A stretch of 64,000 nt of DNA, taken from Magnetococcales bacterium. GTDB taxonomy: Bacteria > Pseudomonadota > Magnetococcia > Magnetococcales > JADFYX01. A program made the translations under genes and the position numbers. The stretch lies in the NCBI GenBank assembly GCA_002753565.1, contig PEAM01000019.1, positions 1 to 64,000 of the forward strand, written 5' to 3'. The notes below the pieces were generated by a model. The model searched no databases and was not told where the DNA came from. It saw only the letters and a list, made by a program, of their open reading frames with translations. Position 1 is the first letter of the stretch. Each line of letters starts with the position of its first letter. Positions 41,875-61,784 of this stretch are shown here, one piece after another.

Positions 41875-43059
41875 ATGAAGAGTACCCCACGTGAGGTTAT
41901 AACCCCCTTTCGCCCCCTCCCTCTGACCATCCCCGAGGGGATGGGGAAAAATGAGTTTTTCAACAGTAGTAACAACCTGAAAAATCTCACCGAAGAGAAC
42001 GGCCTGTTACGAACTCGGGAAAACTTTCTTCTCTACCGAAAAGCCATCGGCCACAGTCTGGAGTTTGATACCTCCATCATCTTCGATACCTCACAGACCA
42101 TTCTCGACCCCCTGGGGCGGCCTGTCCGTCGAGACCAACTCTCCAAGAAGGAGAGCCGGATCTGGAGCCGTATGTCCCAGACCATTGTCGACTATATGCT
42201 GGAGCAGTACCCCGACCCAGAAAAACATCTGGTTTTTTGTGGAGAGGCCAGCCTGGATCCAACCTGGCCCATCAACAAACCGGGGGTTCCCAGCATTCGC
42301 ATGATTCACAACCACTTTATCGTCTACCCCCAAGAGCAGCTTCGCCAAGCTAAAATCGCCGACAGCAACCACCCCAACCTGACGGATGGTGGTCATCATG
42401 GACTGTTTCTTAAACATTTGGGGGAGGTGTATCAACGTTTTTTTGAAATTCTCAACCTCACCATCCTGCAGCCCATCTCCTCTGACAAATCTCAACTGGC
42501 CCTTACCGGATACCCCCAAGGCCTGCCAAGCTGGGAGGTGACCGGGGGTGCCGATAGCCTGAAAAATCCTCGTTTTTGGCAAGAGTACGATTTAATCCTC
42601 AAAGGGTTTCTCGACTTCTACCGCACCTTTTTCGGACTGGTGGCCACCCAAAAGGCCAGCATCCCCAAAGAGAGCTATTTTCCCGATCAGGTGGAAAATG
42701 TGCTGCTGTTTAACAACGATTTTTATCGGGTGGCCAGAGAGGTAAGACTGAAGGTGATCGACGACCCCCAGTTTGCCAACGAGATGCGCTGGCATCCGGC
42801 CTATAAGCAGCTTATGTATCGCGATTGCAAAGGGCGTCTGATTGTCACCATCAGCCAGAACTCCGTTGGTAACGCCATCACCGAACTATTGGGTATCGTC
42901 GTCAAACGGATTCCCGATACCGAAGCCTATAACGCCGCCGAACCGGCTCTGTTAGCCAAACTGTTTGAGGTGTGCCGCCGGCTGATCGCCTCGGACCTGG
43001 GAGAGCCGATCAGCAATGGATTTTGGCCTATTCAGGATGCTCAGACTCTGGAAGATTGA
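41875..43059 (+). CDS. Unknown 394-residue protein
   Basis: I do not recognise this family. The protein is hydrophilic and globular with no signal peptide or membrane helix. Landmarks include R-M-I-H-N-H-F-I-V-Y-P near 142-152, G-G-H-H-G-L-F-L and F-Y-R-T-F-F-G-L. The paired His residues could bind metal but no complete site is visible. A GGAGGGAGATAG sequence just upstream supports ATG 41875. It sits 106 bp after the STAS gene on the same strand and overlaps the convergent receiver-ATPase by 32 bp, which suggests that all three belong to one regulatory module. An enzyme or a sensor is possible. Confidence 0.7.
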   Translation: MKSTPREVITPFRPLPLTIPEGMGKNEFFNSSNNLKNLTEENGLLRTRENFLLYRKAIGHSLEFDTSIIFDTSQTILDPLGRPVRRDQLSKKESRIWSRMSQTIVDYMLEQYPDPEKHLVFCGEASLDPTWPINKPGVPSIRMIHNHFIVYPQEQLRQAKIADSNHPNLTDGGHHGLFLKHLGEVYQRFFEILNLTILQPISSDKSQLALTGYPQGLPSWEVTGGADSLKNPRFWQEYDLILKGFLDFYRTFFGLVATQKASIPKESYFPDQVENVLLFNNDFYRVAREVRLKVIDDPQFANEMRWHPAYKQLMYRDCKGRLIVTISQNSVGNAITELLGIVVKRIPDTEAYNAAEPALLAKLFEVCRRLIASDLGEPISNGFWPIQDAQTLED

Positions 43060-43936
43060 TGGTCGCAACCACCTCATTACCCCTCCCTTGGTAATGAATA
43101 GCATCAAAGCTGAGTAAGTTGGCCATGGCAATGCCCCGACCGTGAGAGTCGAACGCCCGTGCAGGGTCAATCTGCAGATAGTTCTGCCAATCAAACCCCT
43201 CCCCCTGATCTTGAATCACAAAAGTGACGCTTTTTTGATCACGGCTAAACTGAATGGTTGCGCTACGATGGGCATATTCGGGCAGGGAGAGGCGTCGTTC
43301 GACCTCCTGAGACCACCCGCCCTTACGGTTGAGTTGGCTCTTCTGGCGATAGCCAATACCCAGGTTGCCATGCTCCACCGCATTGATCATCAACTCCGTC
43401 AACCCCAACAGGCTCTTCTCTGGATTGGGGCAGGCTTTAGCCAATAGCACCACCAGATCCTGCACCTCCTCCAACGTCCGAAACCGGAACAGGCCAGACT
43501 CCATCAAACGAAACGAGTTGACCGCCTTGTTCACCTCGTTCTGGAGGGCCAGATGGACACCATATTCATGCAAAGCGGTCTCCACAACCGCCAAAATTGC
43601 GCTGCGGTCAACCGGTTTGGTTAAATAGTAGTAGGCTCCCAACTGCAGCCCCCTGGCAATATCCTCTTTCTCCGCCTTGGTGGTGACAAAGATCACAGGA
43701 ATCGCCTTGCACCCCTCCTCTTGCTTGAGTTGACGGCAAACCTCATAGCCATCCATAGCCGGCATCATGACATCGAGAAGAATCAGATGGGGGGCACTTG
43801 ACCGGGCCACCTCCAGGGCCATCGAGCCACTGGTCGCAAAAATAACGGTGTAGCTATGGTGAAGAATCTCATCCAATACCTCAATATTACTCGGCTCATC
43901 ATCAACAATCAGAATCGTCTCTTTCTCTCTTTTCAT
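43028..43936 (-). CDS. Receiver fused to RsbW-like serine kinase/anti-sigma ATPase
   Basis: The 302-residue protein has two parts. The receiver (about 5-122) carries acidic residues I-V-D-D-E, phosphorylatable D55 in L-L-D-V-M-M-P and K in L-T-K-P-V-D. The C-terminus (about 165-300) is a GHKL ATPase with E-L-M-I-N-A-V-E-H-G-N, Q-D-Q-G-E-G-F and S-H-G-R-G-I-A-M-A. That is the anti-sigma/STAS-kinase type rather than a histidine kinase. Phosphorylation of D55 would control its binding of a STAS protein or sigma factor. The 1212-residue kinase follows on the same strand upstream, only 33 bp away, and is its likely input. It overlaps the convergent unknown gene by 32 bp. Confidence 0.85.
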   Translation of the reverse strand: MKREKETILIVDDEPSNIEVLDEILHHSYTVIFATSGSMALEVARSSAPHLILLDVMMPAMDGYEVCRQLKQEEGCKAIPVIFVTTKAEKEDIARGLQLGAYYYLTKPVDRSAILAVVETALHEYGVHLALQNEVNKAVNSFRLMESGLFRFRTLEEVQDLVVLLAKACPNPEKSLLGLTELMINAVEHGNLGIGYRQKSQLNRKGGWSQEVERRLSLPEYAHRSATIQFSRDQKSVTFVIQDQGEGFDWQNYLQIDPARAFDSHGRGIAMANLLSFDAIHYQGRGNEVVATINLPESEHPE

Positions 43937-43968
43937 GGGATGTAACCCTCTTTAATTCTAAAAACAGC

Positions 43969-46900: not shown

Positions 46901-47607
46901 AGTTTGTCCTCTCGATATTTTTTAAACAACCACAGCGCCCACAAGCCCAGCAACCAAGCGATCAGATGGGTTATTTTCAGCCCTTTGATCGATTTTTCAG
47001 CCGCTGCAATATAGTCATGCGCCGGGATGGTCATGCTGATTCCACCACGAATACTCCCCAGTTGATCACCCTGCTTGAGGTGGCATTTCAAGCAGGTTTC
47101 CCGAACAAACAGAGGCTGCATGTAACGGTAGATTTGCTGCTCTGGAAAAAAGCTGAGAGCCGACTTGCCCTGGTCGGCTGCAAAAGCCTGCAAGGCACGG
47201 CTCTCCCACGCATCGGCTTGATTGGCTTCACGAACGGGGTTCAAACTGGTGATGTGATAAGAGATTTTACGGGTAGAGGCGACTATTTCAGAACGTTTAT
47301 CGCCCAGAAAGGCCGGATCGACTTTGGTCAACGGCAATCCCCTCAGAGTGAGAACATCCCTGTTGGGAGGCACGTGAGGGGGAGCAGCATTATTGGGAAG
47401 GGCCTCCGGTGAAGCAGGAACATGGACACCCCCATGGCAGCCATTCCATAATTGGGTGGTCTCAACCTCCGCAAAAAAAGCCTTTCCCACCCCTCGAACG
47501 ATCTGTTCCAGATTTTTCTCGGTGGTATGGAGGTTCCAGGCCAGAGAACCAGCAGCAATCAGGCTCCAAAGAGCGACGGGAAGAGCAAAATGAGCAGTGT
47601 GACGCAT
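43969..47607 (-). CDS. Giant hybrid kinase: DUF3365, GAF, two receivers, Hpt
   Basis: The 1212-residue protein starts at ATG 47607. A signal-anchor (about 7-25) precedes a periplasmic DUF3365 domain with W-N-G-C-H-G-G-V and C172-L-K-C175-H176. A second helix (about 212-230) leads to GAF (about 300-440, C363-L-C-G), HisKA with H472 and HATPase. The first receiver (about 705-830) has lost the acidic pair (L-A-V-G-E-G), so it is probably inactive. The second is intact ([10 protein letters not shown]), and a C-terminal Hpt has H in [11 protein letters not shown]. This is a complete internal phosphorelay likely to feed the receiver-ATPase downstream on the same strand. Confidence 0.9.
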
Positions 47608-47765
47608 GGTGAAATAGTGCCAAACAATACCGCCCATGTCTAGCGAGCATCCCACTTTTATCCAATCGGCAACCCACCCTCAGAAAAAACCGGTATCTTG
47701 TTAAATTTTCGAGATTTTCCAACCCCTCTTGCCGCTCTGTTCAAACCCAGGAATCGTGTCAGTTA

Positions 47766-47873: not shown

Positions 47874-49952
47874 CTAAACCTCTTCGGCGCCTACTTTTTT
47901 GCTGAGAAACTGTTTGATGTCAACTTCGTCAATCTGGTCGGGGCCTAGATAGATCTCTGCATAGGTTTGGTAGACGCCACTGGTGAGAAATAGATCGAAC
48001 AGATCCGCATCAATGTGTTGATCGTTACGCATGAAACTGAGAATCCGCAAAGCCTCATTAATGGTCTTGGGTTTTTTATAGGGACGATCAGCCGCAGTAA
48101 GGGCCTCAAAAATGTCGGCAATTGCCAATATGCGAGCCTGAACCGACATATCCTCCTTTTTTAACTTTCTCGGATAACCGGTACCAATCATGGTTTCATG
48201 GTGCCCACCGGCAAACTCGGGTACGTGGGAGAGATGTTTGGGAAAGGGGAGTTGCTCCAGCATAATGATGGTCTGGATGGAGTGCTCCATAATTTTAAAG
48301 CGCTCCTCTTCGGTGAGGGTGCCTCGGGCAATGCGCAGATTATAGAGCTCTCCGGCGTTGTAGAGATAGCGAGGTGGCTTGAGCTTGATGTTGAAGGTTT
48401 CCAGATAGCTGGTATCTTCCCCCTTGGGATGGCGGAAGATATGATCCTTTTTATCGGTAAGCAGAGCCTCCTTGGCCGGAAGTCGACGTTTGGGGATCCG
48501 CTCAAGCCGGGTCAACTCCCCGTAGGATAGCCCCAGTCTGTCATCAAAGTACCGCTCCCAGGTTTGGGCGCCAATCTGCTCCAGTCGCTTGATTTTCTCC
48601 TCAGCCATAAATTCGCCGCCCACATTACACTCGGCAATAAAGGCGTACTCCTCTTCCAGGCGGGCAATGGCTGCCTCCAGATCCTTTTTTAAAAGATCCG
48701 GATCATCTAATCCTTCGATCAAAGCCTTCTGGTAGTTAATGACACAGTCTCGGCGCAGTACTTCGAAGCGGGTTCGAACCTCATGGATGCGGTTATAGAT
48801 GGTCTCCAGTTTGGTGGCCTTATCGACCACATATTCCGGCGTTGTTACCTTGCCACAGTCATGGAGCCAAGCCGCCAGACGGAACTCATCCCACTCAGAC
48901 TGGTTCATGTCAAAACTACCAAAGATACCGTCATCTTCATCGCAGGCCGCCTGAGCCAGCAAGGTGCCGATCTCGGGAACCCGCTCGCAGTGCCCGCCGG
49001 TATAAGGGGATTTGGCGTCGATGGCGGAGGCGGTTAGTTTGATGATGGAGTTGAGCAGATTAACCTGGGCCTCAACCAAATTTTTGTTATCCAGAGCAAC
49101 CGCCGCCTGAGCCGTCAGTGCTTCAACAAATTTGGTCATATCGGAGGAGAAAGGTAACACCCGCCCCGTACCCGGTTTGCGGGCGTTGATCAGCAGTAAG
49201 ACACCGCTCACATCTCCCTGGCGGGGTTTGAGGGGAACGGCAAGCAGAGAGGTGGAGCGGTAGTCACCTTCTGGGTTGAGATTGTGGAGATCGGAGAAGT
49301 CAAAATCGTTGTTGTCATAACTGTTGGTGATGTTAACCGTCCGTTCGGTAAATGCAGTGTGGGCTGCCAGATTGAAATAGTCCGGCTTGCCGCTCTTGGC
49401 ACTGCGCATGGGAATAGGGGGGGTGTTGATATCCTGCCCGGTCGTCCCCCCCTGATGCCTCTCCAGAGTGTCGATGGAGATGATCTCATGGTGAAGAAAA
49501 TCTTTTTCATCGCGGATGAAAAGAATACCGCCATCGGCATGGGTCAGCTCTTTGGCCCCTTGGAGGATCATCTCCATGAAACGGGCCTGATTACGCTCTT
49601 GGGAGAGGGCAATACCAAGATCAACCAGTCGCTCCAGCTTACCCTGGGTTGCTACCAGCTCTTGGGTACGGGCCTGGACCTTCTCCTCCAGGGTTTCGGC
49701 GTGCTGCCCCAGCTTTTGATGGGCCTTTTCCAACTCGAGTTGTTGAGCCTGGATTTTGTCGTTGGCTTTTTTAAGCCCCTCTTCGCTACGGTCACTCATG
49801 CGGACCAGACGTCGAGATACCTTGAAGAGCTTTTTATAATCCTTTAACAAGGTTTTAAAAGGGCCTTGAAAATCTTTCACGCCCTTATCGGTCAGGAGCA
49901 AATCTCCCGCTTCGATGACCGACTGCTCTGTTTGGAAGGTATCAAAATCCAT
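47874..49952 (-). CDS. HD-GYP phosphodiesterase with SiaD-like N-terminal segment
   Basis: The 692-residue soluble protein has three parts. Residues 37-55 carry Y-K-K-L-x5-R-L-x-R-x-S-D-R, followed by a long coiled coil (about 60-115). A GAF-like domain spans about 120-300. The HD-GYP domain from about 310 has H-D-C-G-K and H-H-E-T-M-I-G-T-G-Y-P, separated by an unusual insertion of roughly 200 residues. HD-GYP enzymes hydrolyse c-di-GMP. It starts at ATG 49952, 3 bp after the siaC stop. In Pseudomonas the corresponding effector SiaD is a diguanylate cyclase, so the opposing activity is seen here. The GYP motif suggests activity, but inserted sequence could alter it. Confidence 0.9.
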   Translation of the reverse strand: MDFDTFQTEQSVIEAGDLLLTDKGVKDFQGPFKTLLKDYKKLFKVSRRLVRMSDRSEEGLKKANDKIQAQQLELEKAHQKLGQHAETLEEKVQARTQELVATQGKLERLVDLGIALSQERNQARFMEMILQGAKELTHADGGILFIRDEKDFLHHEIISIDTLERHQGGTTGQDINTPPIPMRSAKSGKPDYFNLAAHTAFTERTVNITNSYDNNDFDFSDLHNLNPEGDYRSTSLLAVPLKPRQGDVSGVLLLINARKPGTGRVLPFSSDMTKFVEALTAQAAVALDNKNLVEAQVNLLNSIIKLTASAIDAKSPYTGGHCERVPEIGTLLAQAACDEDDGIFGSFDMNQSEWDEFRLAAWLHDCGKVTTPEYVVDKATKLETIYNRIHEVRTRFEVLRRDCVINYQKALIEGLDDPDLLKKDLEAAIARLEEEYAFIAECNVGGEFMAEEKIKRLEQIGAQTWERYFDDRLGLSYGELTRLERIPKRRLPAKEALLTDKKDHIFRHPKGEDTSYLETFNIKLKPPRYLYNAGELYNLRIARGTLTEEERFKIMEHSIQTIIMLEQLPFPKHLSHVPEFAGGHHETMIGTGYPRKLKKEDMSVQARILAIADIFEALTAADRPYKKPKTINEALRILSFMRNDQHIDADLFDLFLTSGVYQTYAEIYLGPDQIDEVDIKQFLSKKVGAEEV

Positions 49953-49955
49953 CTA

Positions 49956-50336
49956 TCAATCCTTGGGAACCATATTGAAGGTAGCATTTTCCAGATCTTC
50001 ACCAAACTCTTCGCCCAGCTCTTCCATGTTGTCGTCGTCGGACTCAAAATGCCAGTTGACCACAACCTGGTTATCTTCTGCCGCCGTGTCGAGTATGTCG
50101 AACAGACCCATGAGAATTTTAGCCGAACTGGAGTTGAAGTAGATCAACTCGAAATCAAAGGTGATATTCGCCCCCTCCTGGCTGCCCAGATGCTCCTTGA
50201 GCGCCTGCATGACGGGTCCATAGAGTTCGGATATGTCTTCAGGGTAGGACTCGCCTGAGAGAGAGAAGGTGTTGGCAGCGAAGTTGAAATCGATCTTGGG
50301 AGACCGTTCGGTCGCTTCTATTTTAATATTGTCCAT
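49956..50336 (-). CDS. siaC: SiaC-like regulatory phosphoprotein (DUF1987)
   Basis: The 126-residue protein matches the SiaC family, a STAS-like fold that binds the effector and is switched by phosphorylation. F-D-F-E-L-I-Y-F-N-S-S-S-A-K holds Ser69-Ser71 at the position of the phospho-Thr of Pseudomonas SiaC (T68). AGGAGCTC upstream fits ATG 50336. It lies between siaB (50416) and the HD-GYP gene, in the order found in sia loci. SiaC should bind the Y-K-K-L helix of the HD-GYP protein when dephosphorylated; that is inference. A Ser acceptor is a small change from the known Thr. Confidence 0.88.
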   Translation of the reverse strand: MDNIKIEATERSPKIDFNFAANTFSLSGESYPEDISELYGPVMQALKEHLGSQEGANITFDFELIYFNSSSAKILMGLFDILDTAAEDNQVVVNWHFESDDDNMEELGEEFGEDLENATFNMVPKD

Positions 50337-50415: not shown

Positions 50416-50976
50416 TTAAATGTAGGCTTTTAAAGCAAAATAAGAGTATTCGGCATCAATTTCGATAAAGTCGAAATCAAAGCCGTGGGTGGCGCGCCGG
50501 GCAATATCCACAAAACCGACCCCGGCTCCTTTGCTGCCAACCGGAACATCTCCCTTTAAGATTTGTTTATAGAGTGCTTTAAGCTCTTCTTTATCCAGAT
50601 TTTGGATCTTGGTCAGATTCTCCCGCAGCCGGTCAACATCCCATTTGGGTACCAGGTTGGCGCAGGCGACAAAATGGCGGTCGTCATTCTGCCCAACCGT
50701 CAGCAGGCCGTAGCGCATCTCCTTGCCGTCATAATCGGGATCATCGGTGTCTGGCTCTTTTTCGGCTGAGTAGCGGATGACATTTTGCACCTGCTCGACA
50801 AAAAGAGAAAAAATGCCGCGAGCTACCTTCCTGTCTGTTTTCTCCATGTCCAGTTTGGACCGGAGTGTTTTGCCTATCCCCGCAAGAACCTCTTCCGTCA
50901 TATAGCCACTGTAGCAAAAAATTACCCCCTGCTTGGCTAACGCTTCCCGGAAAGAATACATTTCCTTTGCAATCAT
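50416..50976 (-). CDS. siaB: SiaB-like serine/threonine kinase
   Basis: The 186-residue protein matches the SiaB/DUF6272 family, a compact GHKL-type kinase that phosphorylates SiaC. Features include an N-box-like F-V-E-Q-V-Q-N-V-I-R-Y-S and a Gly-rich G-S-K-G-A-G-V-G-F-V near residues 146-155, in place of the classical G2 loop. AGGGGATAATA precedes ATG 50976. It lies 79 bp before siaC and 121 bp after the giant SiaA-like gene. No membrane region is present; activity is presumably cytoplasmic. Phosphorylation would oppose the PP2C domain of its neighbour. Confidence 0.88.
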   Translation of the reverse strand: MIAKEMYSFREALAKQGVIFCYSGYMTEEVLAGIGKTLRSKLDMEKTDRKVARGIFSLFVEQVQNVIRYSAEKEPDTDDPDYDGKEMRYGLLTVGQNDDRHFVACANLVPKWDVDRLRENLTKIQNLDKEELKALYKQILKGDVPVGSKGAGVGFVDIARRATHGFDFDFIEIDAEYSYFALKAYI

Positions 50977-51097: not shown

Positions 51098-54000
51098 CTA
51101 TAACAGTACCCTCTTTCGGCGACTCAAGAAGGTGGCCAACTTATGGTCTACCTCATGGATATGGTTGATTAGCCAGTTTTTTATTAAAAAATTGAGTTCA
51201 TTGGGGGCCGCTTTGTCGTCGGCCATGAATTGGTTGCGAATCTGATTGACCTTGCTAATCAGCGCCTCATGTTCGGTTTTATGGTCGATCATGTTGGGAT
51301 AATCGTTGGACTGCATCAACCGCTCTTCATGTCGAAAGTGCCAGGAGGTGTAGTCGACCAACTGATTCAAACTATCAAAAATCTCTCCGTAGCCTAGATT
51401 TTTATCCAGGGCAAAGTGGAGTTGATTGATCAGGTCGACCAGCTTTTGATGGTCGTCATCAATGGCAGCAAACCCCACCATGAGCGATGCATCCAGCACA
51501 AAAAACGGCTCCTGCTCTCCCTGCTCTCCCTTGTCGGCAACCTGTACCGTATCAAGGGTGTTCAGAAAATCTGCCAACTTTTTATCCACTTGATGGATAT
51601 GTCCGTTGAGCCACTCCAGTAGAAAGAGCATAAGATCGGTGGAGACGTCCCGATTGTTCTCCCGGATATCCTGTTCAATCTTCAGCACCTCATCCACCAG
51701 CATCTTATGATTGTCTCGATGTTTTTCCTGCTCCGGGTAGTCGTTCACCTGCATCAGACGGTCTTCATGGCGGAAATGCCAGGCGGTATAGTCGATCAGC
51801 TCGGAGAGAATCGCCAAAATCGCCTCACGGTCATGGCCCTGAATAATGGCATTGTTAAGCTTGTTTATCATGCTGAAAAGCCGTTGGTGGTCATCGTCTA
51901 TGGGCTTGAAACCCACCAAAAGCGAATGGTCCATTTCGATCAGGTTGGCGTTGGTGATAAGGCCAGTGGGGGGTAAACATTTAAAGCCGATGACAGAAAG
52001 GTCATCTCGCCGTTTCTGCTTACCCTGGAACTGTTCCAAGGCCTGGAGAAACAGCTCTTTCTGTTTGGAAAGGGGTTTGTCTCCATGGGTTGCAATCAGG
52101 GACATGAACCGTTTTTTGCCGAAGCTGCGTCGCTTCTCCCCACCAATCTGATCAATCAGTCCGTCGGAGGTCATATAGAAGGTCTGTTGGGGAATGGTAT
52201 CGATGGCGTGGTTGGTAAACTGGATATCGGTGGCAATACCCCGATAACCCAACCCGGACTTGGTCCCCTTGATGATCTCAACCTGGTTATCCTGGAGGAT
52301 GAACAGGTCGAAGCGGGCCCCGGCAAAGATGAGACAGCCCTGGGTGTCGCTCAGGAAACAGGCACCGATTTCAATACCGTCATCGGATGTTCCGCTGCCG
52401 TTCTCCCCCTGGCCAAGAGAGGATTGAATCAATTGGTGCATGCGCTGCAACAGTGCCGCCGGGTCTCCGGGGGGGGTCTCCAGATAGGCCTCATCCAGCG
52501 CACCGTTGGCAATCAGGGTGATAAAAGCCCCCGGCACCCCATGTCCGGTACAATCCCCCAGCATGATCAGGGAGCCGTTGCCCCAAGAGCGGTGCCAGTA
52601 AATATCCCCGCCAACCGTATCCCGAGGTTTCCAGAGGACAAAATAGTCGGCAAAGCTCTCTTGGAGTACGGTTTCGGTGGGCAGAATGGAGCGCTGAATA
52701 CGGCTGGCATACTGGATGCTGCTGGCGATGAGGTTCATGGCCTGGTCACGCTCTTCGGCCATTTTTTTCTGTTTGGTGATATCCTCTCCCACGCTGACAA
52801 AATGGGTGATCTTGCCCGCCTCATCTCGAATGGGGGCAATGGAGATCTGTTTCCAATAGAGGGCTCCATTTTTTCGTTGGTTGAGCAGGACCCCACGCCA
52901 AAGTTTGCCGGTGGAGAGGGTGGACCACATCTGCTGATAGATGGTCGGGTCGGTTTTGCCGGAACTTAAGAGAGAGGTTTTCTTCCCTAGAGCCTCCAGG
53001 GGGGAGTAACCGGTGGTTTGGGAAAACTTTTTGTTCACATATTCGATCACCCCATTCTGATCGGTAATAATAACCGAGACCGGGCTCTCTTCAACAGCGA
53101 TGGAGAGTTTTTTAAGGTTGGCTTCTGACTCTTTGCGTTGGGTAATGTCGGTAAAGGTACTGACAAACCCACCCCCTGGCAGCGCGCCACCCTGGATCTC
53201 AATGATACTGCCATCCGGTCGAGAGCGCTCCAGATGGTGCGAAGCCTCGTTCATGGCTTTTTTAAGGAGGTTTTGTACGATCTCCTCAACATCACCAGGG
53301 CCAAACTCCCCCATCTGGGCGTCGTGACGAACCCACGCCTCAAAGGTGGAGCCCGGTTTGGAAAGGGCTTCGGGCATTTTACGGATAGCGCGCATCTGGT
53401 CGTTGCAGACGATCAGGCGGAAATCTTGATCATAGGCGATCAAACCCTGCTGCAGATTAGCTAAAATAGCCTCTAGAAGGTTGCTTTTCTGCGCCAGTTC
53501 CAGCTCCGCTCTGCGCCGCTCATGGACCTCCTGGCCCAGTCGGCGATTCCAGCTGAGAATAAAAAAGAGGATGATGGCCGTGAGCAGAACAAGGGGAATG
53601 GCCCAGTAGAGAATGGTGCTGAGGTTGGTGCCAAAGTTCACCTCGACAGCCAGCCAACTGTTTCGGATGGCGGCATGCTGCTCCTTGGTCATGAACGCCA
53701 GGGTTTTATCCAAAATGGCCACCAACTCCGGCCAATCTTTTCGGACACCGATGGCAAGCTCGAAGTTATAGTTGGTGGCATCGGCTATCTTGATGGTGTC
53801 TGTTTTCAACTGGTCCATCTGATAGGTGATGGCCCCCAGGTTGTCGAAAACAGCGTGGATCTGGGCGTCAGAGAGGGCTTGGAGAGCCTCTTGAAGCGTG
53901 GGGTAGGGAACCCGGATGATGTGGGGATGGTCCCGGCGCAGGATCTCTTCGGTAACATAGCCTGCAACCACGCCTACCCTCTTTTTTTTCAATGCGTTGA

Positions 54001-55843
54001 GGGTGCTGCCATGGTTGCCCTGTTTGTGTGCGGCGACGACCATGGGAAAGCGGATGTAGGGTTTGGTAAAGTTTAAAAACTTCTCCCGGTCCGGAGAGTG
54101 CATGACCGCCGGGAGGATATCCAGGCCACCCTCCTTAACCTGTTGTATCACCTCTTGCCAGCTTAGCTGGGTGGCCGGCTCCAGTCGAATACCCAGCTGG
54201 CTGGATATCCAGTCGGTGTACCCGGAGCTGATCCCTTTATGAAGCCCCTCTTCCAAAAACTCAAAAGGGGGCCACGCCCTATCCACGCCCATACGCAGTT
54301 CAGGATGGGTTGCAATCCACAGCCGCTCATTGGGGGTCAGTCTTACCCTGTTTTTATCGGTTGTTGAGAGGGTGAACCATTTTTGGAAAATCTCATTACG
54401 CTCATCGTCAGTGATGGCATCCAGCCCTTTTTGTAAGATAGACGCCAGAATGGGTTCATCAATCCGAGAGAAAAAATGCATGGGGGAGGCTTTGAAAACG
54501 GTCTGGCTGATACCTCTGAGGCCGATGATGGCGTTGTCTAAAATCACCTTTTCCGCCGCCATCTGTGCCTCCATCAAGGCGTCCGCCTCGCCGTTCAACA
54601 CCGCATTGATGGAGTCGATCAAGCTGGGGGTTTCGATGATGGTGGCCTTGGGGTAGCGTTTTTTCAACTTGGGAATGGTGCCATATCCCTTCACAACCGC
54701 AATCCGTCCCTGGGCCAGATCTTCCAGGCTGTGCAGGGACCGGTTCTCCTCTTTGACATAGAGGAACTCTCGACCGTAAAAAAAGGGTTTGGAGTAGAGC
54801 CCGTAGGTTGCCCGTTCTTCGGTGTAGTAGGTGAGGGGCAGAAGATCGATGCTTTTTTGTTTCAGCCCATTGAGCAGAGTGCTCCAGGCATCGCTGACAA
54901 TTTCACCTTTAAGTCCGGTCTTCTCCAGCACCTTGTTGAGAAAATCTCCCCCCACACCACTGGCATGGCCCGGCTTGTCGGAAAAAATGTAGGGGGTCCA
55001 CTCCTCCACACCGATGCGTATCACATGTTCCCGTACCCAACGATCCTCCTCCAGAGTCAGGGGGATGATCCGTTGCTTTTGATAGGTCTCCCACCGTTTG
55101 TTGATCTGCTTTTTTTCCTGCTCGGAGAGTTGAGCCATCCCCCGGTTGATCTGTTCGAGGAGGGGCTGGTTACCCTTTTGGGTGGCCACATGCCATCGAT
55201 TGCTTTTGATGGGATGGCCTTTGTCAGCGACAAAGTGGCTGTCAAGGCCGCTCTTTTTCATGTGGTAGAGGGCGGAATGGGCGTCACTGGCAAAAACCAA
55301 CAGATCTTTCTGTTTGAGAGCCTCCATCAGTTGCTGAAAAGATGGATAGGAGATGATGGCGGCTGTTGGCTGTTGTTGTTTGAGATACCCCTCTAGGAAG
55401 CCCCCGGTAATGACACCGATTCGGTAGGCTTTGAAATCTATTTGAGAAGACGGTTTTGGCAGATCTTTGTGATAGAAGAACAGACTGTCGGACTGATGAA
55501 GATCGATACCGAAATCGAGGTACTGTTCTCTTTCCTGGCTCACATGAAGACCGGCATGGGCATCCGCTTTCCCCTCACGGACCATGGACAGGGTTTGATG
55601 CCAAGGGGCTGGAATATAGCGTACCTTTTGGGCGGTTTTCTCTTCCCACAATCGCCAATGGTCTATGATCAGCCCCTCGGGCTTGCCCTTTTCATTCTGA
55701 TATTGAAAGGGGGTGCAGTCTTGACAAAAGACCACGGAGAGGGGAGCGGTTGTCGGGGTGGCGTGAAGGGTGGAGGAAAAAGAGAAGGTGACCAACAGCC
55801 AGAGAGAGAGAACCCAGTATTTGGTGTGAAAGAGCTTAAGCAC
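51098..55843 (-). CDS. SiaA-like PP2C phosphatase with three binding domains and two hemerythrins
   Basis: The 1581-residue protein starts at GTG 55843 behind GAAGG, with a signal peptide ending near T-L-H-A. Three SBP_bac_3-type solute-binding domains lie at about 30-265, 285-505 and 515-740. A membrane helix (about 755-778) precedes PAS-type domains (about 800-1040, the second with T-D-Q-N-G-V-I-E-Y-V-N). A SpoIIE/PP2C domain (about 1060-1290) has G-G-D-I-Y, G-D-C-T-G-H-G and R-R-D-D-L-S. Two hemerythrins (about 1307-1430 and 1453-1575) each have H-F-R-H-E and late H-I-H-x-V-D. The PP2C part resembles SiaA, which dephosphorylates SiaC. Hemerythrin's di-iron site suggests O2 or NO control. 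Confidence 0.88.
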   Translation of the reverse strand: MLKLFHTKYWVLSLWLLVTFSFSSTLHATPTTAPLSVVFCQDCTPFQYQNEKGKPEGLIIDHWRLWEEKTAQKVRYIPAPWHQTLSMVREGKADAHAGLHVSQEREQYLDFGIDLHQSDSLFFYHKDLPKPSSQIDFKAYRIGVITGGFLEGYLKQQQPTAAIISYPSFQQLMEALKQKDLLVFASDAHSALYHMKKSGLDSHFVADKGHPIKSNRWHVATQKGNQPLLEQINRGMAQLSEQEKKQINKRWETYQKQRIIPLTLEEDRWVREHVIRIGVEEWTPYIFSDKPGHASGVGGDFLNKVLEKTGLKGEIVSDAWSTLLNGLKQKSIDLLPLTYYTEERATYGLYSKPFFYGREFLYVKEENRSLHSLEDLAQGRIAVVKGYGTIPKLKKRYPKATIIETPSLIDSINAVLNGEADALMEAQMAAEKVILDNAIIGLRGISQTVFKASPMHFFSRIDEPILASILQKGLDAITDDERNEIFQKWFTLSTTDKNRVRLTPNERLWIATHPELRMGVDRAWPPFEFLEEGLHKGISSGYTDWISSQLGIRLEPATQLSWQEVIQQVKEGGLDILPAVMHSPDREKFLNFTKPYIRFPMVVAAHKQGNHGSTLNALKKKRVGVVAGYVTEEILRRDHPHIIRVPYPTLQEALQALSDAQIHAVFDNLGAITYQMDQLKTDTIKIADATNYNFELAIGVRKDWPELVAILDKTLAFMTKEQHAAIRNSWLAVEVNFGTNLSTILYWAIPLVLLTAIILFFILSWNRRLGQEVHERRRAELELAQKSNLLEAILANLQQGLIAYDQDFRLIVCNDQMRAIRKMPEALSKPGSTFEAWVRHDAQMGEFGPGDVEEIVQNLLKKAMNEASHHLERSRPDGSIIEIQGGALPGGGFVSTFTDITQRKESEANLKKLSIAVEESPVSVIITDQNGVIEYVNKKFSQTTGYSPLEALGKKTSLLSSGKTDPTIYQQMWSTLSTGKLWRGVLLNQRKNGALYWKQISIAPIRDEAGKITHFVSVGEDITKQKKMAEERDQAMNLIASSIQYASRIQRSILPTETVLQESFADYFVLWKPRDTVGGDIYWHRSWGNGSLIMLGDCTGHGVPGAFITLIANGALDEAYLETPPGDPAALLQRMHQLIQSSLGQGENGSGTSDDGIEIGACFLSDTQGCLIFAGARFDLFILQDNQVEIIKGTKSGLGYRGIATDIQFTNHAIDTIPQQTFYMTSDGLIDQIGGEKRRSFGKKRFMSLIATHGDKPLSKQKELFLQALEQFQGKQKRRDDLSVIGFKCLPPTGLITNANLIEMDHSLLVGFKPIDDDHQRLFSMINKLNNAIIQGHDREAILAILSELIDYTAWHFRHEDRLMQVNDYPEQEKHRDNHKMLVDEVLKIEQDIRENNRDVSTDLMLFLLEWLNGHIHQVDKKLADFLNTLDTVQVADKGEQGEQEPFFVLDASLMVGFAAIDDDHQKLVDLINQLHFALDKNLGYGEIFDSLNQLVDYTSWHFRHEERLMQSNDYPNMIDHKTEHEALISKVNQIRNQFMADDKAAPNELNFLIKNWLINHIHEVDHKLATFLSRRKRVLL

Positions 55844-56005: not shown

Positions 56006-56992
56006 TCAGGAGTCCCTGAACAGTTCGACAATGGTGAGATCATCATCGATTTCGGCCCCCTTTCCGATAAAGCGGTTGAGGGAGGTGACGATCTGTTCAA
56101 GGGGTGTTTCCGTTGCCAGATAGTCAGCCAGCAGATCCCCAAGCCGTTCGATACCAAACATCTCCTCCTTTTGGTTTCTCGGCTCGATGATGCCATCGGT
56201 AAAAAAGAAGATATGGTCCCCCGGTTCCAGATGGATAACGGTCCTTTGCCAGTGTTGACTCTTGTTCTCTGTCAGCCCCAGTGGAAAACTGTTGGAGGGG
56301 ATCAGACTGTGAAGATGGTTGTTTCGAAACAGCATCCCATCCGGTATGCCACCGTTCCAGATGGAAAGCTGCCAGGAAGATTCGTCCAACTCCAACATGG
56401 TGGCCGCCAGATAGATCCCGGTAGGGAGTCTCTCTCGCAAGCGATGGTTGATCTCGGCCAGAATCACCAGCGGGGCGAACCCTTTATGGGTCATGGCGTG
56501 GAAGACATCGGAAACTTCCGGTCCGACAATGGCGGCTGGAAGACCGTGGCCGGTGATATCACCCAACAGAATGTGACGGACTCTGTCCGGCCTTCGGGAG
56601 GAGAAGAGAATGTCTCCTGAGGCTTTATCTACCGGCTGCAGCAGATGGTGGATGCCCTCCCCATCAAACCGGGTGTTGGAGTGCATCTTGGTGAGAATCT
56701 CCTCGACCAGTTCCTGATCCATGGAGAGCTTGTCTTGATGGCGGCGCAGATGGGCCAGGGTGTTGGTCAGCAGCTGTTCGGAGTTACGCAGGGCAAGCTG
56801 ATTGCGATCGCTGATTCGGTTGAGGCGGACAGATTGGCGGTGGAGTTTTTTGTAGGCGTTGACCAGCTCCGAAAAGGCGGAACGCAGCTCGGGTAGAGGG
56901 GTCGCCTCTTGTTGCAGCAGAGCGGCCGCCCGATGGATGATGCGCTCCTCCTGGTCAAACAGGCCGGACGCCCTTTTTTTGGGGGGAGCCAT
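56006..56992 (-). CDS. PP2C/SpoIIE-type phosphatase with SDR helix
   Basis: The 328-residue protein starts at ATG 56992; a TTG at 57037 is an alternative. Residues 47-63 repeat Y-K-K-L-x5-R-L-x-R-x-S-D-R at the same spacing as the HD-GYP protein. A coiled segment follows, and then a SpoIIE domain (about 110-325) with G-D-I-T-G-H-G, F-F-T-D-G-I-I-E and D-D-L-T. It may dephosphorylate a STAS or SiaC-type protein, and the shared helix suggests the same adaptor contacts it. It is coupled to the receiver gene, ten bases after its stop. No membrane or signal region is visible. Confidence 0.85.
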   Translation of the reverse strand: MAPPKKRASGLFDQEERIIHRAAALLQQEATPLPELRSAFSELVNAYKKLHRQSVRLNRISDRNQLALRNSEQLLTNTLAHLRRHQDKLSMDQELVEEILTKMHSNTRFDGEGIHHLLQPVDKASGDILFSSRRPDRVRHILLGDITGHGLPAAIVGPEVSDVFHAMTHKGFAPLVILAEINHRLRERLPTGIYLAATMLELDESSWQLSIWNGGIPDGMLFRNNHLHSLIPSNSFPLGLTENKSQHWQRTVIHLEPGDHIFFFTDGIIEPRNQKEEMFGIERLGDLLADYLATETPLEQIVTSLNRFIGKGAEIDDDLTIVELFRDS

Positions 56993-57002
56993 GGGGGAGA
57001 CT

Positions 57003-57395
57003 CTATCGACCGAAGTTTTTCTGTTTGATCTCTTCAATTTCAGCGATCAAACGGGGTGTATCCTGGCCCTTTCGGATAAAATCGATGGCGCCGGCATCGA
57101 AAGAGAAGTCCAAGGTCTGTTTGGGGTCGGTGGCTGTTAACATGGCGATGCGGGAGTTGGGGGACTCTTGTCGAATGATCTTCAAGGCGTCAATCCCGTC
57201 CATGTAGGGCATCTCAATATCGAGGATGGTCAGGTCGGGTTGGTGTTGCCTGAACAGGGTGACCGCCTCCTGCCCATCCTCCCCCCGGGCAATGATATCA
57301 AAGTCCAGCTCTGCCAGGATGAGGGATAACGCTTCGAGAATGAGGGGATCGTCATCTACGATCAGGGCCGTTGGTTTTTTTGGGGTCTGGTTCAT
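57003..57395 (-). CDS. Single-domain response regulator
   Basis: This is a 130-residue receiver domain with V-D-D-D at the acidic pocket, the phospho-acceptor in L-D-I-E-M-P-Y-M-D-G and the Lys in I-R-K-G. ATG 57395 follows AGAGG; an upstream GTG at 57413 lacks spacing. It has no output domain, so it works like CheY or Spo0F, and it probably regulates the PP2C phosphatase just downstream. It is the first gene of that two-gene unit. The nearby hybrid kinases are candidate phosphodonors. Confidence 0.9.
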   Translation of the reverse strand: MNQTPKKPTALIVDDDPLILEALSLILAELDFDIIARGEDGQEAVTLFRQHQPDLTILDIEMPYMDGIDALKIIRQESPNSRIAMLTATDPKQTLDFSFDAGAIDFIRKGQDTPRLIAEIEEIKQKNFGR

Positions 57396-57434
57396 GCTTG
57401 TTATCCTCTCCACTTTGGCTCTCCTCCCTCCTCA

Positions 57435-57839: not shown

Positions 57840-58598
57840 ATGCGTGATGGTTCAGATCAAAAAACCGGTTATTGGCAGGTGGTTCGCCTTGTTCACCGAG
57901 CGTGGCGTTATCGGCTTGGTCGGGATAAACAGGAGATTTCAACCCTGCTCAACCACCTGAAGCCGGGGCAGTGTGCGGTGGATATCGGTGCCCATAAAGG
58001 GGCCTATACCTACTGGATGCAGCGGGCTGTGGGCCGTGAGGGATCGGTGGTGGCGTTTGAACCCCAACCGCTGTTGGCTCAGCGGTTGACGGGGTTGATG
58101 AAAAAAATGGCTATTAGTCATGTGACCATCGAACAGATGGGGCTGTCGGACCAGGCGGCCATGGGGGAGCTCCATATTCCCGGCGATGGCAGCCCTTCCC
58201 CGGGGGCCAGTCTGGTGGGTCAATCCATAACCGGACCCCAGACCACGGTTTCTCAGGTGAAGCTGGAGACCCTGGATGGTTATTTTGCCAACAGAGGCCG
58301 GGTCCACCTGATCAAATGTGATGTGGAAGGTCATGAGTTGGCGGTTTTTAAAAGTGGCATCAAGCTGCTGAAGAGAGACCGCCCCCTGATACTGTTTGAG
58401 TGCGAATCCCGGCACCAGTCGGGACATACCGTGGCGGATGTTTTTCAATTTTTGGTCGAGTTGGGCTATCAGGGGCGCTTTTATGATCGAGGCGAATCTT
58501 ACCCCATCTCAGCTTTTCGTGCCGAGATGCAGGCCAACCCCGGCAGTCGGGCGTATGTGAATAACTTTATCTTTACCCACCCTGCAACCCCCGAGTAG
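57840..58598 (+). CDS. FkbM-family methyltransferase
   Basis: The 252-residue protein has the SAM-binding motif V-D-I-G-A-H-K-G-A-Y-T at about 43-53 and the FkbM-type L-I-K-C-D-V-E-G-H-E-L near 159-169. FkbM proteins O-methylate sugars or natural products. It starts the second glycan locus, 2 bp before a GT2 gene with which it is presumably co-transcribed. The first 40 residues look like a helical extension. It may methylate a nonulosonate or other glycan residue. Acceptor and position are not predictable. Confidence 0.85.
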   Translation: MRDGSDQKTGYWQVVRLVHRAWRYRLGRDKQEISTLLNHLKPGQCAVDIGAHKGAYTYWMQRAVGREGSVVAFEPQPLLAQRLTGLMKKMAISHVTIEQMGLSDQAAMGELHIPGDGSPSPGASLVGQSITGPQTTVSQVKLETLDGYFANRGRVHLIKCDVEGHELAVFKSGIKLLKRDRPLILFECESRHQSGHTVADVFQFLVELGYQGRFYDRGESYPISAFRAEMQANPGSRAYVNNFIFTHPATPE

Positions 58599-58600
58599 CG

Positions 58601-59383
58601 ATGGATGCCAACAGTAAAAAGCTGCCTCTTAGCGTCACCATCATCACCCTGAACGAGTCGGACGCCCTGCCGGCCTGTCTGGAGAGTGTCGCCTTTGCGG
58701 AGGATCTTGTCGTGGTGGATTCGGGCAGTACCGATGATACGCTGCAGATAGCCCAGAGTATGGGGGCACGGGTTTTCTCTCAGCCGTGGCTGGGCTATGG
58801 TCAGCAGAAAAATTTTGCTGTCGATCAGGCGCGCCATGATTGGGTGTTGTGTCTGGATGCCGACGAGCGGGTTGATCCCCTTTTAAGAGCAAGTATCGAG
58901 ACGGCACTCTCTCATCCCAACCCCCCATTCAACGGCTATCAGATCGCCCGCCGCAACCATTTTTTGGGTCGGGGGCTGAAACACGGTTTTGGTTACCCTG
59001 ACATCAATATCCGCTTAATGAACCGTCACCGTGGTCGCTGGACCGAGCCATCGGTCCATGAGTACATTCAGGTGACGGGCCCGGTGGGTAGGTTGGATGG
59101 GGATCTGCTGCACTTTTCTGCCGAAAATTTTCAGCAATATCTGGAGAAGCACAACCGCTATACCACCCTCCAGGCACAGATGTTGATGGCCCATCCACCC
59201 CGCTGGTTGCGACTGAAAATGGTGGTGAATCCCCTGGTCTGTTTTATCAAGGGGTATGTGATCAAACGGGCCTTTTTAGATGGCCTTCCGGGGCTGGTCC
59301 ATACGGTCTGCCACTGTTTTACCACCTTTACCAAATATGCCAAACTCTACGAATCCCTTCTTCGAGAGAAGAGAGCGGGGTAA
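58601..59383 (+). CDS. Family 2 glycosyltransferase (WaaE/KdtX-like)
   Basis: The 260-residue cytoplasmic GT-A protein has S-V-T-I-I-T-L-N-E near 11-19, V-V-D-S-G-S-T-D-D-T near 37-46 and the metal-binding L-D-A-D-E-R near 84-89. W-T-E-P-S-V-H-E-Y is similar to LPS core beta-glucosyltransferases of the WaaE/KdtX type. Donor and acceptor are not determined. It follows the FkbM gene immediately (2-bp gap) and precedes a gap of 195 bases with a short leader frame. A role in core or flagellar glycan assembly is likely. Confidence 0.85.
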   Translation: MDANSKKLPLSVTIITLNESDALPACLESVAFAEDLVVVDSGSTDDTLQIAQSMGARVFSQPWLGYGQQKNFAVDQARHDWVLCLDADERVDPLLRASIETALSHPNPPFNGYQIARRNHFLGRGLKHGFGYPDINIRLMNRHRGRWTEPSVHEYIQVTGPVGRLDGDLLHFSAENFQQYLEKHNRYTTLQAQMLMAHPPRWLRLKMVVNPLVCFIKGYVIKRAFLDGLPGLVHTVCHCFTTFTKYAKLYESLLREKRAG

Positions 59384-59544
59384 AAGGGGGGGAGAAGAGT
59401 GTTGGGGTGGGCTTGACACGCTCTGGGGATTCCTTTAGCTTGACAGGCAAAATCTGTTATTGAGACTTGGAAACAGGTCGGATCAAGACCTCCATTTCAG
59501 CTGTAACCAACCCGGAACCACCCTAAAAAGAGTAGAGCCATACC

Positions 59545-59586
59545 ATGTTAGATAACCCCGTCGCCACCCCCGCCTGCCATGAGTGA
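59545..59586 (+). other. Possible 13-codon leader frame overlapping the dehydratase start
   Basis: ATG at 59545 opens a frame of 13 codons (M-L-D-N-P-V-A-T-P-A-C-H-E) whose TGA at 59584-59586 lies just inside the dehydratase gene, whose ATG at 59579 has no ribosome-binding site. Re-initiation from this leader would explain translation. It could also be chance. Confidence 0.3.
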
Positions 59587-60634
59587 CATCTCCCCGAACT
59601 ACCAAGGAAAAAGCGTTATGGTTACCGGAGCTTGCGGTACCATCGGCGCCATGTTGGTGGAGGCCCTTTTGGCGTTGGATGTCGCCTATGTTCTGGCCTT
59701 TGACAACAACGAATCGGAGATCTTCTTCCTGGGGGAGCGTTATAAGGATGATCTCCGCTTTGAGGCCTTTGTTGGTGATGTGCGGGATCTGACCAAGCTG
59801 CAACGGTGCATGTCCGGTATCGACATTGTATTTCATGGGGCCGCCCTGAAAAATGTTGTTGTCTGTGAGCGTTCGCCTTTTGATGCCGTACAGAGTAACA
59901 TTCTTGGGGTCGAGAATATTGTCAATGCTGCCCTGGATAATCAGGTGGAGCGGGTGCTTTTCATGAGCTCTGACAAGGCCGTCAACCCCACCAACGTCAT
60001 GGGAACCTCCAAGTTGATGGGGGAGAGAATCATGACCGCTGCCATGAATCTGCGTAATCGCCAACAGACTCTGTTGATGACCAGCCGTTTTGGCAACGTC
60101 TTGGGGTCTCAGGGGTCGGTGTTGCCGGTCTTTGCTGAGCAGATCCGCCAGGGTGGGCCGGTTACGCTCACCGATCCCGGCATGACCCGTTTTATCATGA
60201 CCGACCGTCAGGCGGTCAACCTGGTGATGCGGGCGGCGGTTTTGGGGCAGGGGGGTGAGGTGTTTGTGACCAAAATGCCGGTGTTGCGTATTCTGGATCT
60301 GGCCCGTGCCATGATCCAAATCTTGGCGCCGATTCATGGTTATGCCCCGGCCCAGATTGAGATCACCACTATTGGCAGCAAACCGGGCGAGAAAATTTTT
60401 GAAGAGCTTCTGGCCGACGAGGAGGTGCGACGGACTGTCGATCTGGATGACCATTTTGTGGTGCTTCCGGCCTTCCAGAACCTCTACGACACCATGGACT
60501 TCAGCTATAGCCAGCAGACCGGCGAGAAGGTAGACCGCTCTTATCGATCGGATCATGAGACCCTGATGACCGAGGAGGAGGTGAAGCAATTTTTACTGGA
60601 GCAGAAGGTGTTGGAAGCCTACATGGAGGTGTAA
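59579..60634 (+). CDS. Second nucleotide-sugar 4,6-dehydratase (FlaA1/PseB/LegB type)
   Basis: The 351-residue SDR has T-G-A-C-G-T-I-G at 16-23 and D-K-A-V-N-P-T-N-V-M141-G-T-S-K145, the MxxxK form of the active site seen in FlaA1/PseB/LegB. Gene order with a synthase and hydrolysing 2-epimerase points to nonulosonate or other diamino sugar production. It is a diverged paralogue of the copy at 5747, lacking that protein's N-terminal extension and having a longer tail. ATG 59579 is chosen; it lacks a clear ribosome-binding site and may depend on an upstream short frame. A sugar-nucleotide epimerase lies 2 bp downstream. Confidence 0.85.
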   Translation: MSDISPNYQGKSVMVTGACGTIGAMLVEALLALDVAYVLAFDNNESEIFFLGERYKDDLRFEAFVGDVRDLTKLQRCMSGIDIVFHGAALKNVVVCERSPFDAVQSNILGVENIVNAALDNQVERVLFMSSDKAVNPTNVMGTSKLMGERIMTAAMNLRNRQQTLLMTSRFGNVLGSQGSVLPVFAEQIRQGGPVTLTDPGMTRFIMTDRQAVNLVMRAAVLGQGGEVFVTKMPVLRILDLARAMIQILAPIHGYAPAQIEITTIGSKPGEKIFEELLADEEVRRTVDLDDHFVVLPAFQNLYDTMDFSYSQQTGEKVDRSYRSDHETLMTEEEVKQFLLEQKVLEAYMEV

Positions 60635-60635
60635 G

Positions 60636-61784
60636 ATGCGGATATTGATTCTGGGTGGAGATGGCTATCTGGGCTGGCCTACATCCATGTATCTGGCCGG
60701 CCAAGGGCATCAGGTGATGGTAGTGGACAACTATCTGCGTCGGCAGATCTGCCTGGAGCAGGGTTTGACCCCCCTGATTGCCGTTCCGGACCTTCATCAG
60801 CGTTGTCAACAGTGGCTAAAGAGCCACGGCAGCAGGATTGAGTTTGCAGTAGGGGATGTGACCGACTACCCCTTTTTGCTGGGGATTTTTCAGCGATTTG
60901 AGCCAGAGGTGGTGATTCACTATGCCGAGCAGCCTTCGGCGCCTTACTCCATGATGGGCTATCGAGAGGCCCGTCTCACCGTCAGCAATAACCTGATCAG
61001 TACCCTCAATGTTGCCTACGCCGTGCGGGAGACCAACCCGGCCTGTCATATTATCAAGCTGGGTACCATGGGGGAGTATGGCACCCCCAACATCGACATC
61101 GAAGAGGGCTTTATCGACCTGGAACACAAGGGCCGTTCCGATCGGCTGCTTTTTCCCCGTCAAGCTGGCTCTCTCTATCACACCACCAAAATTCAAGATA
61201 CCGACCTGCTCTATTTTTATGTGCGGGTTTGGGGGTTGCGGGTCACCGACCTGATGCAGGGGCCGGTTTATGGCCTGATGACACCAGAGATGGGGGACGA
61301 CCCCAAGCTGTTCACCTTTTTTAACTATGACGAGCAGTTTGGTACTGTACTCAACCGTTTTATGGTGCAGGCGGTGGCTGGCATTCCCCTGACGGTTTAT
61401 GGCAAGGGGGGGCAGACTCGAGGCTATCTTAATTTGATGGATGTGTTGCAGTGTGTCCGCTTGGCCGTGGAAAAGGGGGCGGCTCCGGGAGAGATGCAGA
61501 TTTTCAACCAGTTTACCGAGACGTTCAGCGTCAACCAACTGGCCGAGAAGGTACAGCGGGTTGGTGGTGCCATGGGGCTGGATGTACAGATTAAATCTCT
61601 TCCCAATCCCCGTAAGGAGTTGGAGGAGCACTACTACAATCCGGTCCATAAGGCGTTGACCGACCTGGGGCTGACCCCCAACCTGCTTACCGATGAGGTC
61701 ATCGCCGGCATGTTAACCCAGGCCCAACGCTATCGGGACGCCATTCAGCCAGCCTTTATCCAGCCAAAAACCCAGTGGAAATGA
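60636..61784 (+). CDS. UDP-sulfoquinovose synthase-like epimerase (SQD1 family)
   Basis: The 382-residue SDR opens with I-L-G-G-D-G-Y-L-G-W-P-T (NAD site) and has K-L-G-T-M-G-E-Y-G-T-P-N-I-D-I-E-E-G at about 141-158. T144, Y181 and K185 match the catalytic Thr, Tyr and Lys of plant SQD1. V-Y-G-K-G-G-Q-T-R-G-Y also fits. SQD1 makes UDP-sulfoquinovose from UDP-glucose and sulfite. In this organism sulfite is an intermediate of dsr-driven sulfur oxidation. A sulfated or related sugar in a surface glycan is therefore plausible. GGAGG lies upstream. ATGA overlap couples it to the next synthase. A different uronate-type substrate cannot be excluded. Confidence 0.85.
   Translation: MRILILGGDGYLGWPTSMYLAGQGHQVMVVDNYLRRQICLEQGLTPLIAVPDLHQRCQQWLKSHGSRIEFAVGDVTDYPFLLGIFQRFEPEVVIHYAEQPSAPYSMMGYREARLTVSNNLISTLNVAYAVRETNPACHIIKLGTMGEYGTPNIDIEEGFIDLEHKGRSDRLLFPRQAGSLYHTTKIQDTDLLYFYVRVWGLRVTDLMQGPVYGLMTPEMGDDPKLFTFFNYDEQFGTVLNRFMVQAVAGIPLTVYGKGGQTRGYLNLMDVLQCVRLAVEKGAAPGEMQIFNQFTETFSVNQLAEKVQRVGGAMGLDVQIKSLPNPRKELEEHYYNPVHKALTDLGLTPNLLTDEVIAGMLTQAQRYRDAIQPAFIQPKTQWK

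Follow-up and report, generated by a model that had tools for sequence, protein, structure and literature searches.

A predicted hemerythrin-bearing receptor phosphatase in a probable SiaABCD-type partner switch of a Magnetococcales bacterium, and a candidate portable docking stalk for SiaC

In the SiaABCD system of Pseudomonas aeruginosa, a SiaA-type PP2C phosphatase, the SiaB kinase and the SiaC switch protein are encoded in one operon, and the output is a c-di-GMP enzyme, the diguanylate cyclase SiaD (GGDEF), which carries a SiaC-binding helical stalk (PMC7647112, PMC8457831). The SiaC-SiaD structure shows T68 of SiaC gripping S82 and Q86 of SiaD, within an R-I-S-D-R-x-Q motif of the stalk (PMC8457831). 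Hemerythrin (Hr) domains with the seven-ligand motif H-HxxxE-HxxxH-HxxxxD are known to feed chemoreceptors, c-di-GMP enzymes and a P-type ATPase, and the outputs of Hr sensors named in a review are MCP, DGC, HD-GYP and P1B-5-ATPase only (PMC9388753).

Elements of both kinds of system meet in the window, the whole stretch of 64,000 nucleotides that was analysed. On one strand it encodes, in order, a receiver protein, a 343-aa PP2C, a receptor phosphatase, SiaB, SiaC and a GAF-HD-GYP protein:

57003..57413, minus strand: stand-alone response-regulator receiver domain, overlapping the second PP2C gene
56006..57037, minus strand: second PP2C, 343 aa, RsbU-like, stalk-bearing
56717..56902, minus strand: putative SiaC-docking stalk of the second PP2C (RISDRNQ motif)
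51098..55843, minus strand: receptor phosphatase, 1581 aa (signal peptide, three SBP_bac_3, TM, PAS_7, PAS_9, PP2C of SiaA type, Hr, Hr)
55076..55753, minus strand: SBP_bac_3 domain 1 (aa 31-256; Pfam)
54359..55051, minus strand: SBP_bac_3 domain 2 (aa 265-495; Pfam)
53639..54343, minus strand: SBP_bac_3 domain 3 (aa 501-735; Pfam); best PDB relatives 7ejg and the BvgS/EvgS sensor regions
53537..53626, minus strand: single membrane helix (aa 740-769; hydropathy)
53123..53464, minus strand: PAS_7 domain (aa 794-907; Pfam)
52757..53098, minus strand: PAS_9 domain (aa 916-1029; Pfam); closest to the PAS domains of MmoS (3ewk) and NifL (2gj3)
51974..52747, minus strand: PP2C/SpoIIE domain (aa 1033-1290), metal-binding Asp motifs GGDIY, GDCTGHG, SDGLIDQIGGE and RRDD
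51554..51931, minus strand: hemerythrin 1 (aa 1305-1430), all 7 ligands
51119..51493, minus strand: hemerythrin 2 (aa 1451-1575), all 7 ligands
50416..50976, minus strand: SiaB-family switch kinase (DUF6272; NF038262, E 2.6e-55, above cut-off)
49956..50336, minus strand: SiaC switch protein (PF09345, E 4.7e-41); Ser at the T68 phosphosite of SiaC, N67 and S69 kept
47874..49952, minus strand: GAF-HD-GYP protein, likely effector, with N-terminal SiaC-docking stalk
49698..49886, minus strand: putative SiaC-docking stalk of the HD-GYP effector; its RMSDRSE motif lies in a helix predicted to span 90 residues
43969..47655, minus strand: hybrid histidine kinase (Tll0287-like input, GAF, REC, Hpt); neighbour, system membership uncertain
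43028..43936, minus strand: REC and RsbW-like HATPase_c_2 protein; neighbour, system membership uncertain

The locus resembles SiaABCD in that phosphatase, kinase and switch protein share one operon, and in that the output is a c-di-GMP enzyme with a SiaC-binding helical stalk, here a predicted one. It differs in that the receptor carries three SBP domains, PAS domains and two Hr domains, the effector is a GAF-HD-GYP protein rather than the diguanylate cyclase SiaD, the phosphosite of SiaC is Ser rather than Thr, and a second, stalk-bearing PP2C is present. Because the effector is of the GAF-HD-GYP kind, we regard the system as a variant and not as SiaABCD itself. DcrH, the Vibrio cholerae Bhr-DGC and the Ferrovum Bhr-HD-GYP likewise couple a C- or N-terminal seven-ligand Hr domain to a signalling output, twice to c-di-GMP (PMC9388753). 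Whereas their Hr domains sit on an MCP, a GGDEF or an HD-GYP domain, a tandem pair sits here on a protein phosphatase and, unlike in the two Bhr enzymes, would reach c-di-GMP only through SiaC. The tandem periplasmic SBP_bac_3 (Venus flytrap) domains, one membrane helix and cytoplasmic PAS recall sensors of the BvgS/EvgS type, although those are histidine kinases with two SBP domains and the receptor has three, with a PP2C output. Finally, a PP2C set against a GHKL-type kinase over a STAS-like switch protein is the arrangement of the RsbU/SpoIIE partner switches, but their output is a sigma factor, whereas here the PP2C is of the SiaA type and the output is a second-messenger enzyme.

The receptor gene is a single open frame with a GTG start. 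Pfam assigns its domains (three SBP_bac_3, E 1.5e-61; PAS_7, 1.5e-34; PAS_9, 5.2e-20; SpoIIE/PP2C, 5.7e-19; two Hemerythrin, 3e-28), and hydropathy gives one hydrophobic segment (740-769) after an N-terminal signal-peptide-like stretch, which forms the border between the three SBP domains and the cytoplasmic part. These results confirm the architecture described in the earlier note, in which one polypeptide joins three periplasmic binding domains, one membrane helix, PAS domains, a PP2C and two Hr domains. What we take, from the alignment, to be the family 3 ligand-site Arg (cf. LAO/HisJ) is retained in all three SBP domains, and the presumed second-lobe acidic position (same comparison) is Asp in domains 1 and 3 and Glu in domain 2. 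The PAS domains of MmoS and NifL, closest to PAS_9, are flavin-binding. The SiaA profile NF038263 covers residues 1030-1288 (E 1.6e-68, below the full-length equivalog cut-off), and SiaA-PP2C (6k4e) is the best match of the receptor PP2C in both sequence and fold, with a TM of 0.84 by target for a predicted model of the PP2C-Hr-Hr part. This AlphaFold model has a pLDDT of 74 and a pTM of 0.47, at which the packing of domains is unsure. The SiaA residue F612, a proposed SiaC contact, is not conserved in the receptor PP2C.

Both Hr domains contain the complete diiron ligand set: H1319, H1356, E1360, H1375, H1379, H1415 and D1420 in the first, and H1465, H1502, E1506, H1521, H1525, H1561 and D1566 in the second. 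The iron sites had earlier been called near-complete; with seven of seven ligands present in each domain, incomplete sites are ruled out. The NCBIfam bacteriohemerythrin profile matches two stretches of the receptor (E 2.7e-66), and the predicted model has two four-helix bundles that resemble DcrH-Hr (2avk; TM 0.90 by target). Given the intact ligands, sensing of O2 or NO is plausible, and the two Hr domains probably pass a signal of O2, NO or redox state on to the PP2C. Where characterised Hr sensors control c-di-GMP enzymes, their regulation depends on diiron redox state (PMC8846402, PMC9388753).

The connection of the receptor to a SiaC-type switch, also put forward in the earlier note, is well supported: SiaB and SiaC are encoded by the next genes, and SiaA is the nearest PP2C. 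All genomes with the PP2C-Hr pairing have SiaC (16/0 vs 21/11, p 0.009). The SiaC gene is separated from the HD-GYP gene by a gap of 3 bp. The phosphosite is Ser in 55/55 SiaC proteins, and Asn67 is kept in 54/55. In the effector, the HD, HHE and GYP motif residues (H364 D365, H584 H585 E586, G592 Y593 P594 and D613) are invariant in 17 homologues. The HD and HHE parts are set apart by about 140 inserted residues, which the family conserves together with the variant GTGYP where DGSGYP is expected. With the long insertion and this variant, c-di-GMP hydrolysis by the effector is not certain. Its predicted model (pLDDT 78, pTM 0.49) begins with a short helix followed by the 90-residue helix that holds the motif, as in SiaD. 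Elsewhere in the window, the Tll0287-like input of the neighbouring hybrid kinase (43028-47655 region) possibly holds heme, and positions 57840-63962 hold a divergent surface-sugar cluster (FkbM methyltransferase, GT2, Polysacc_synt_2, NeuB and UDP-GlcNAc 2-epimerase, of nonulosonate type).

Following the known SiaABCD mechanism (PMC8457831, PMC7647112), we hypothesize that the locus encodes a partner switch of this type in which the phosphatase is a diiron-coupled transmembrane receptor and the output a c-di-GMP phosphodiesterase, a reading that we consider probable. Domains, intact ligands and catalytic residues, gene order and the stalk motif with its link to SiaC are read from the sequences; what each enzyme does, which cofactors and ligands take part and whether each control step is positive or negative we infer. 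Specifically, SiaB would phosphorylate SiaC on the Ser at the T68 position, and the receptor PP2C would remove this phosphate. The phosphatase may integrate periplasmic ligands, sensed through the SBP domains and membrane helix, a redox signal or ligand (flavin redox) sensed by the two PAS domains, and O2, NO or redox state sensed at the two C-terminal diiron sites. Unphosphorylated SiaC would then bind the GAF-HD-GYP enzyme at its N-terminal coiled-coil stalk and alter the activity of this enzyme, such that docking controls c-di-GMP hydrolysis. If docking activates its partner as in P. aeruginosa, c-di-GMP would fall when the phosphatase is active, in contrast to SiaABCD. The stalk of the second PP2C is perhaps another docking place for unphosphorylated SiaC, and we can only guess that this protein is a further SiaC target or a feedback phosphatase.

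The pairing of PP2C with Hr recurs in relatives. PP2C-Hr or PP2C-Hr-Hr fusions are found in other Magnetococcales and in Rhodospirillales, including Pararhodospirillum oryzae (L057), behind diverse sensors: SBPx3-dCache-PAS (L033), SBPx2-PAS (L053, a Rhodospirillaceae MAG), GAF-PAS (L051), MHYT-PAS (L036), REC (L032) and dCache-PAS (L044). Tandem Hr domains occur in L053 (SBP-SBP-PAS-PP2C-Hr-Hr) and L033 (SBPx3-dCache-PAS-PP2C-Hr-Hr). The earlier statement that no described protein has exactly this order holds for the literature searched, in which we found no paper on SpoIIE with hemerythrin, but not for sequences, among which L053 and L033 show that the order is not unique. The search for papers with both 'SpoIIE' and 'hemerythrin' covered open-access texts, and PP2C-Hr fusions may have been mentioned in passing elsewhere; the phosphatase-hemerythrin pairing appears to be undescribed. 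Among the matches listed for about 350 sampled genomes of the phylum outside the order, none spans PP2C and Hr.

At nine loci (L034, L035, L038, L039, L041, L042, L043, L151 and L170) Hr is instead a separate gene beside the PP2C gene, with the gene order PP2C, Hr, SiaB, SiaC, HD-GYP in L035 and L038. The PP2C genes of L034 and L151 are followed by two tandem single-domain Hr genes, like the Hr-Hr of the fused form, and in L034 a stop codon parts the PP2C and the first Hr, both in the same frame. A separate ORF, L160:6527-8410, joins REC-PP2C and SiaB, the phosphatase and kinase of the same switch.

In a PP2C tree, 24 proteins form one clade (99/90) that holds 10/11 fused and 9/9 two-gene proteins, three near a contig edge and two with no visible Hr, of which L040 runs to the contig end and L047 comes from a genome (G033) that encodes a two-gene-type Hr on a different contig (L209). 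Fused (96/73) and two-gene (97/93) proteins separate within it. The Hr tree groups the two-gene Hrs in one clade (97/96) and the second Hrs of the tandems in another (98/92); fused and two-gene Hrs together stand apart from background Hrs with modest support (80/87). Because of these groupings, we conclude that Hr has been retained by one PP2C lineage, whether covalently joined or as a genetic partner, a pattern expected of a physically linked function. A single origin of every PP2C-Hr fusion is ruled out by G006 (L044), which lies outside the clade, carries an Hr of divergent sequence and appears to have been fused independently. Since most siaC loci of the order lack Hr, this partner is optional.

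One might ask whether the Hr domains sense anything, or rather supply, store or protect (by buffering O2 or iron, or scavenging NO or peroxide at the membrane) while the PP2C is controlled by SBP and PAS domains only. The genomes are rich in hemerythrins, with 8-40 Hr domains each, and the separate small Hr protein of many relatives would suit such a role. However, the same PP2C lineage has Hr either fused or in the next gene, which fits a physical partner and not a diffusible buffer, and characterised Hr fusions are sensors (PMC9388753). We consider this alternative rather unlikely.

Also unlikely is that the PP2C acts mainly on another phosphoprotein, such as an anti-sigma antagonist or a REC/RsbW-like pair, with SiaBC-HD-GYP as a parallel pathway. 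A REC-RsbW-like protein and a second PP2C are encoded in the window, and some PP2C-Hr loci lack siaBC nearby: in the sequence retrieved around the PP2C-Hr genes of G010, G031, G019 and G001 (REC-PP2C-Hr), siaBC is absent. Yet both the sequence and the predicted structure of the receptor PP2C resemble SiaA, and the PP2C gene is followed directly by siaB-siaC here and in several relatives.

Least probable among the functional readings, and in our estimate quite unlikely, is that the Hr domains are mainly a structural or dimerisation module for which the diiron site matters little in signalling. The four-helix bundles adjoin the catalytic domain in the predicted model, and PP2Cs of the SpoIIE/RsbU kind are controlled by dimerisation. 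A mere scaffold, however, would be expected to lose some ligands, whereas each of the fused and two-gene Hrs examined retains all seven. An assembly error or chance fusion of unrelated genes has practically no probability and is ruled out by recurrence, as the receptor frame is open and mid-contig and the PP2C-Hr-Hr junctions align, at about 43-60% identity, in relatives from independent assemblies.

With a loosened form of the stalk motif, 33 matches occur across 775,387 aa of ORFs, compared to 0.85 expected after shuffling, and nearly all lie in a gene at or near siaC. A stalk profile yields 40 true matches at or above 32 bits with noise below 0. A gene at or near siaC carries a stalk in about 40 loci. 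Within the order, genomes with SiaC and stalk, SiaC only, stalk only and neither number 35/2/1/10 (Fisher p 1e-7); outside it they number 14/12/0/275 (p 2e-17), and siaC adjoins the stalk gene in 14/14 genomes with a stalk. Both p values are inflated by shared ancestry, the genomes not being independent, and the outside set spans several families. The source genome has exactly two stalks, both in the receptor operon. To test the stalk, we used the motif, the stalk profile, co-occurrence with SiaC and the NCBIfam SiaD profile, which gave weak matches (E 0.0097 for the 343-aa PP2C, 0.015-0.022 for others); a PDB sequence search with the stalks alone gave no significant match because the segments are short and helical.

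Stalk carriers include GAF-HD-GYP and GGDEF proteins, class III cyclases (PF00211), histidine kinases and, in this window only, a PP2C; the 343-aa protein upstream of the receptor is the only stalk-bearing PP2C in the loci examined. Seven stalk-bearing PF00211 cyclases lie beside siaC (L051:3754-4818, L062:8251-9288, L153:1339-2394, L161:4255-5415, L145:4102-5361, L163:5066-6760 and L164:5669-6955), one with a PilZ domain. The histidine kinases with a stalk at or near siaC (L126:3750-6008, L127:1528-2580 and L156:7304-8305) suggest that SiaC may control a two-component kinase.

We lean towards the view that SiaC is a general-purpose switch whose portable 65-residue stalk is found on HD-GYP, GGDEF, class III cyclase, histidine kinase and PP2C proteins, such that one switch, fed here by a diiron-sensing phosphatase, could be coupled to the synthesis or breakdown of c-di-GMP, to cAMP/cGMP synthesis or to protein phosphorylation. 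The survey supports the proposal, made with the SiaC structure, that modulating adjacent proteins is a general role of DUF1987 proteins (PMC8457831). It suggests SiaC targets well beyond diguanylate cyclases, and the stalk provides a sequence handle for predicting what a given SiaC acts on. As an output of Hr, a protein phosphatase would form a new class and would tie diiron chemistry to Ser phosphorylation. For the Magnetococcales, which include magnetotactic bacteria known for oxygen-gradient lifestyles, this system is a candidate route from O2 and nutrients to c-di-GMP.
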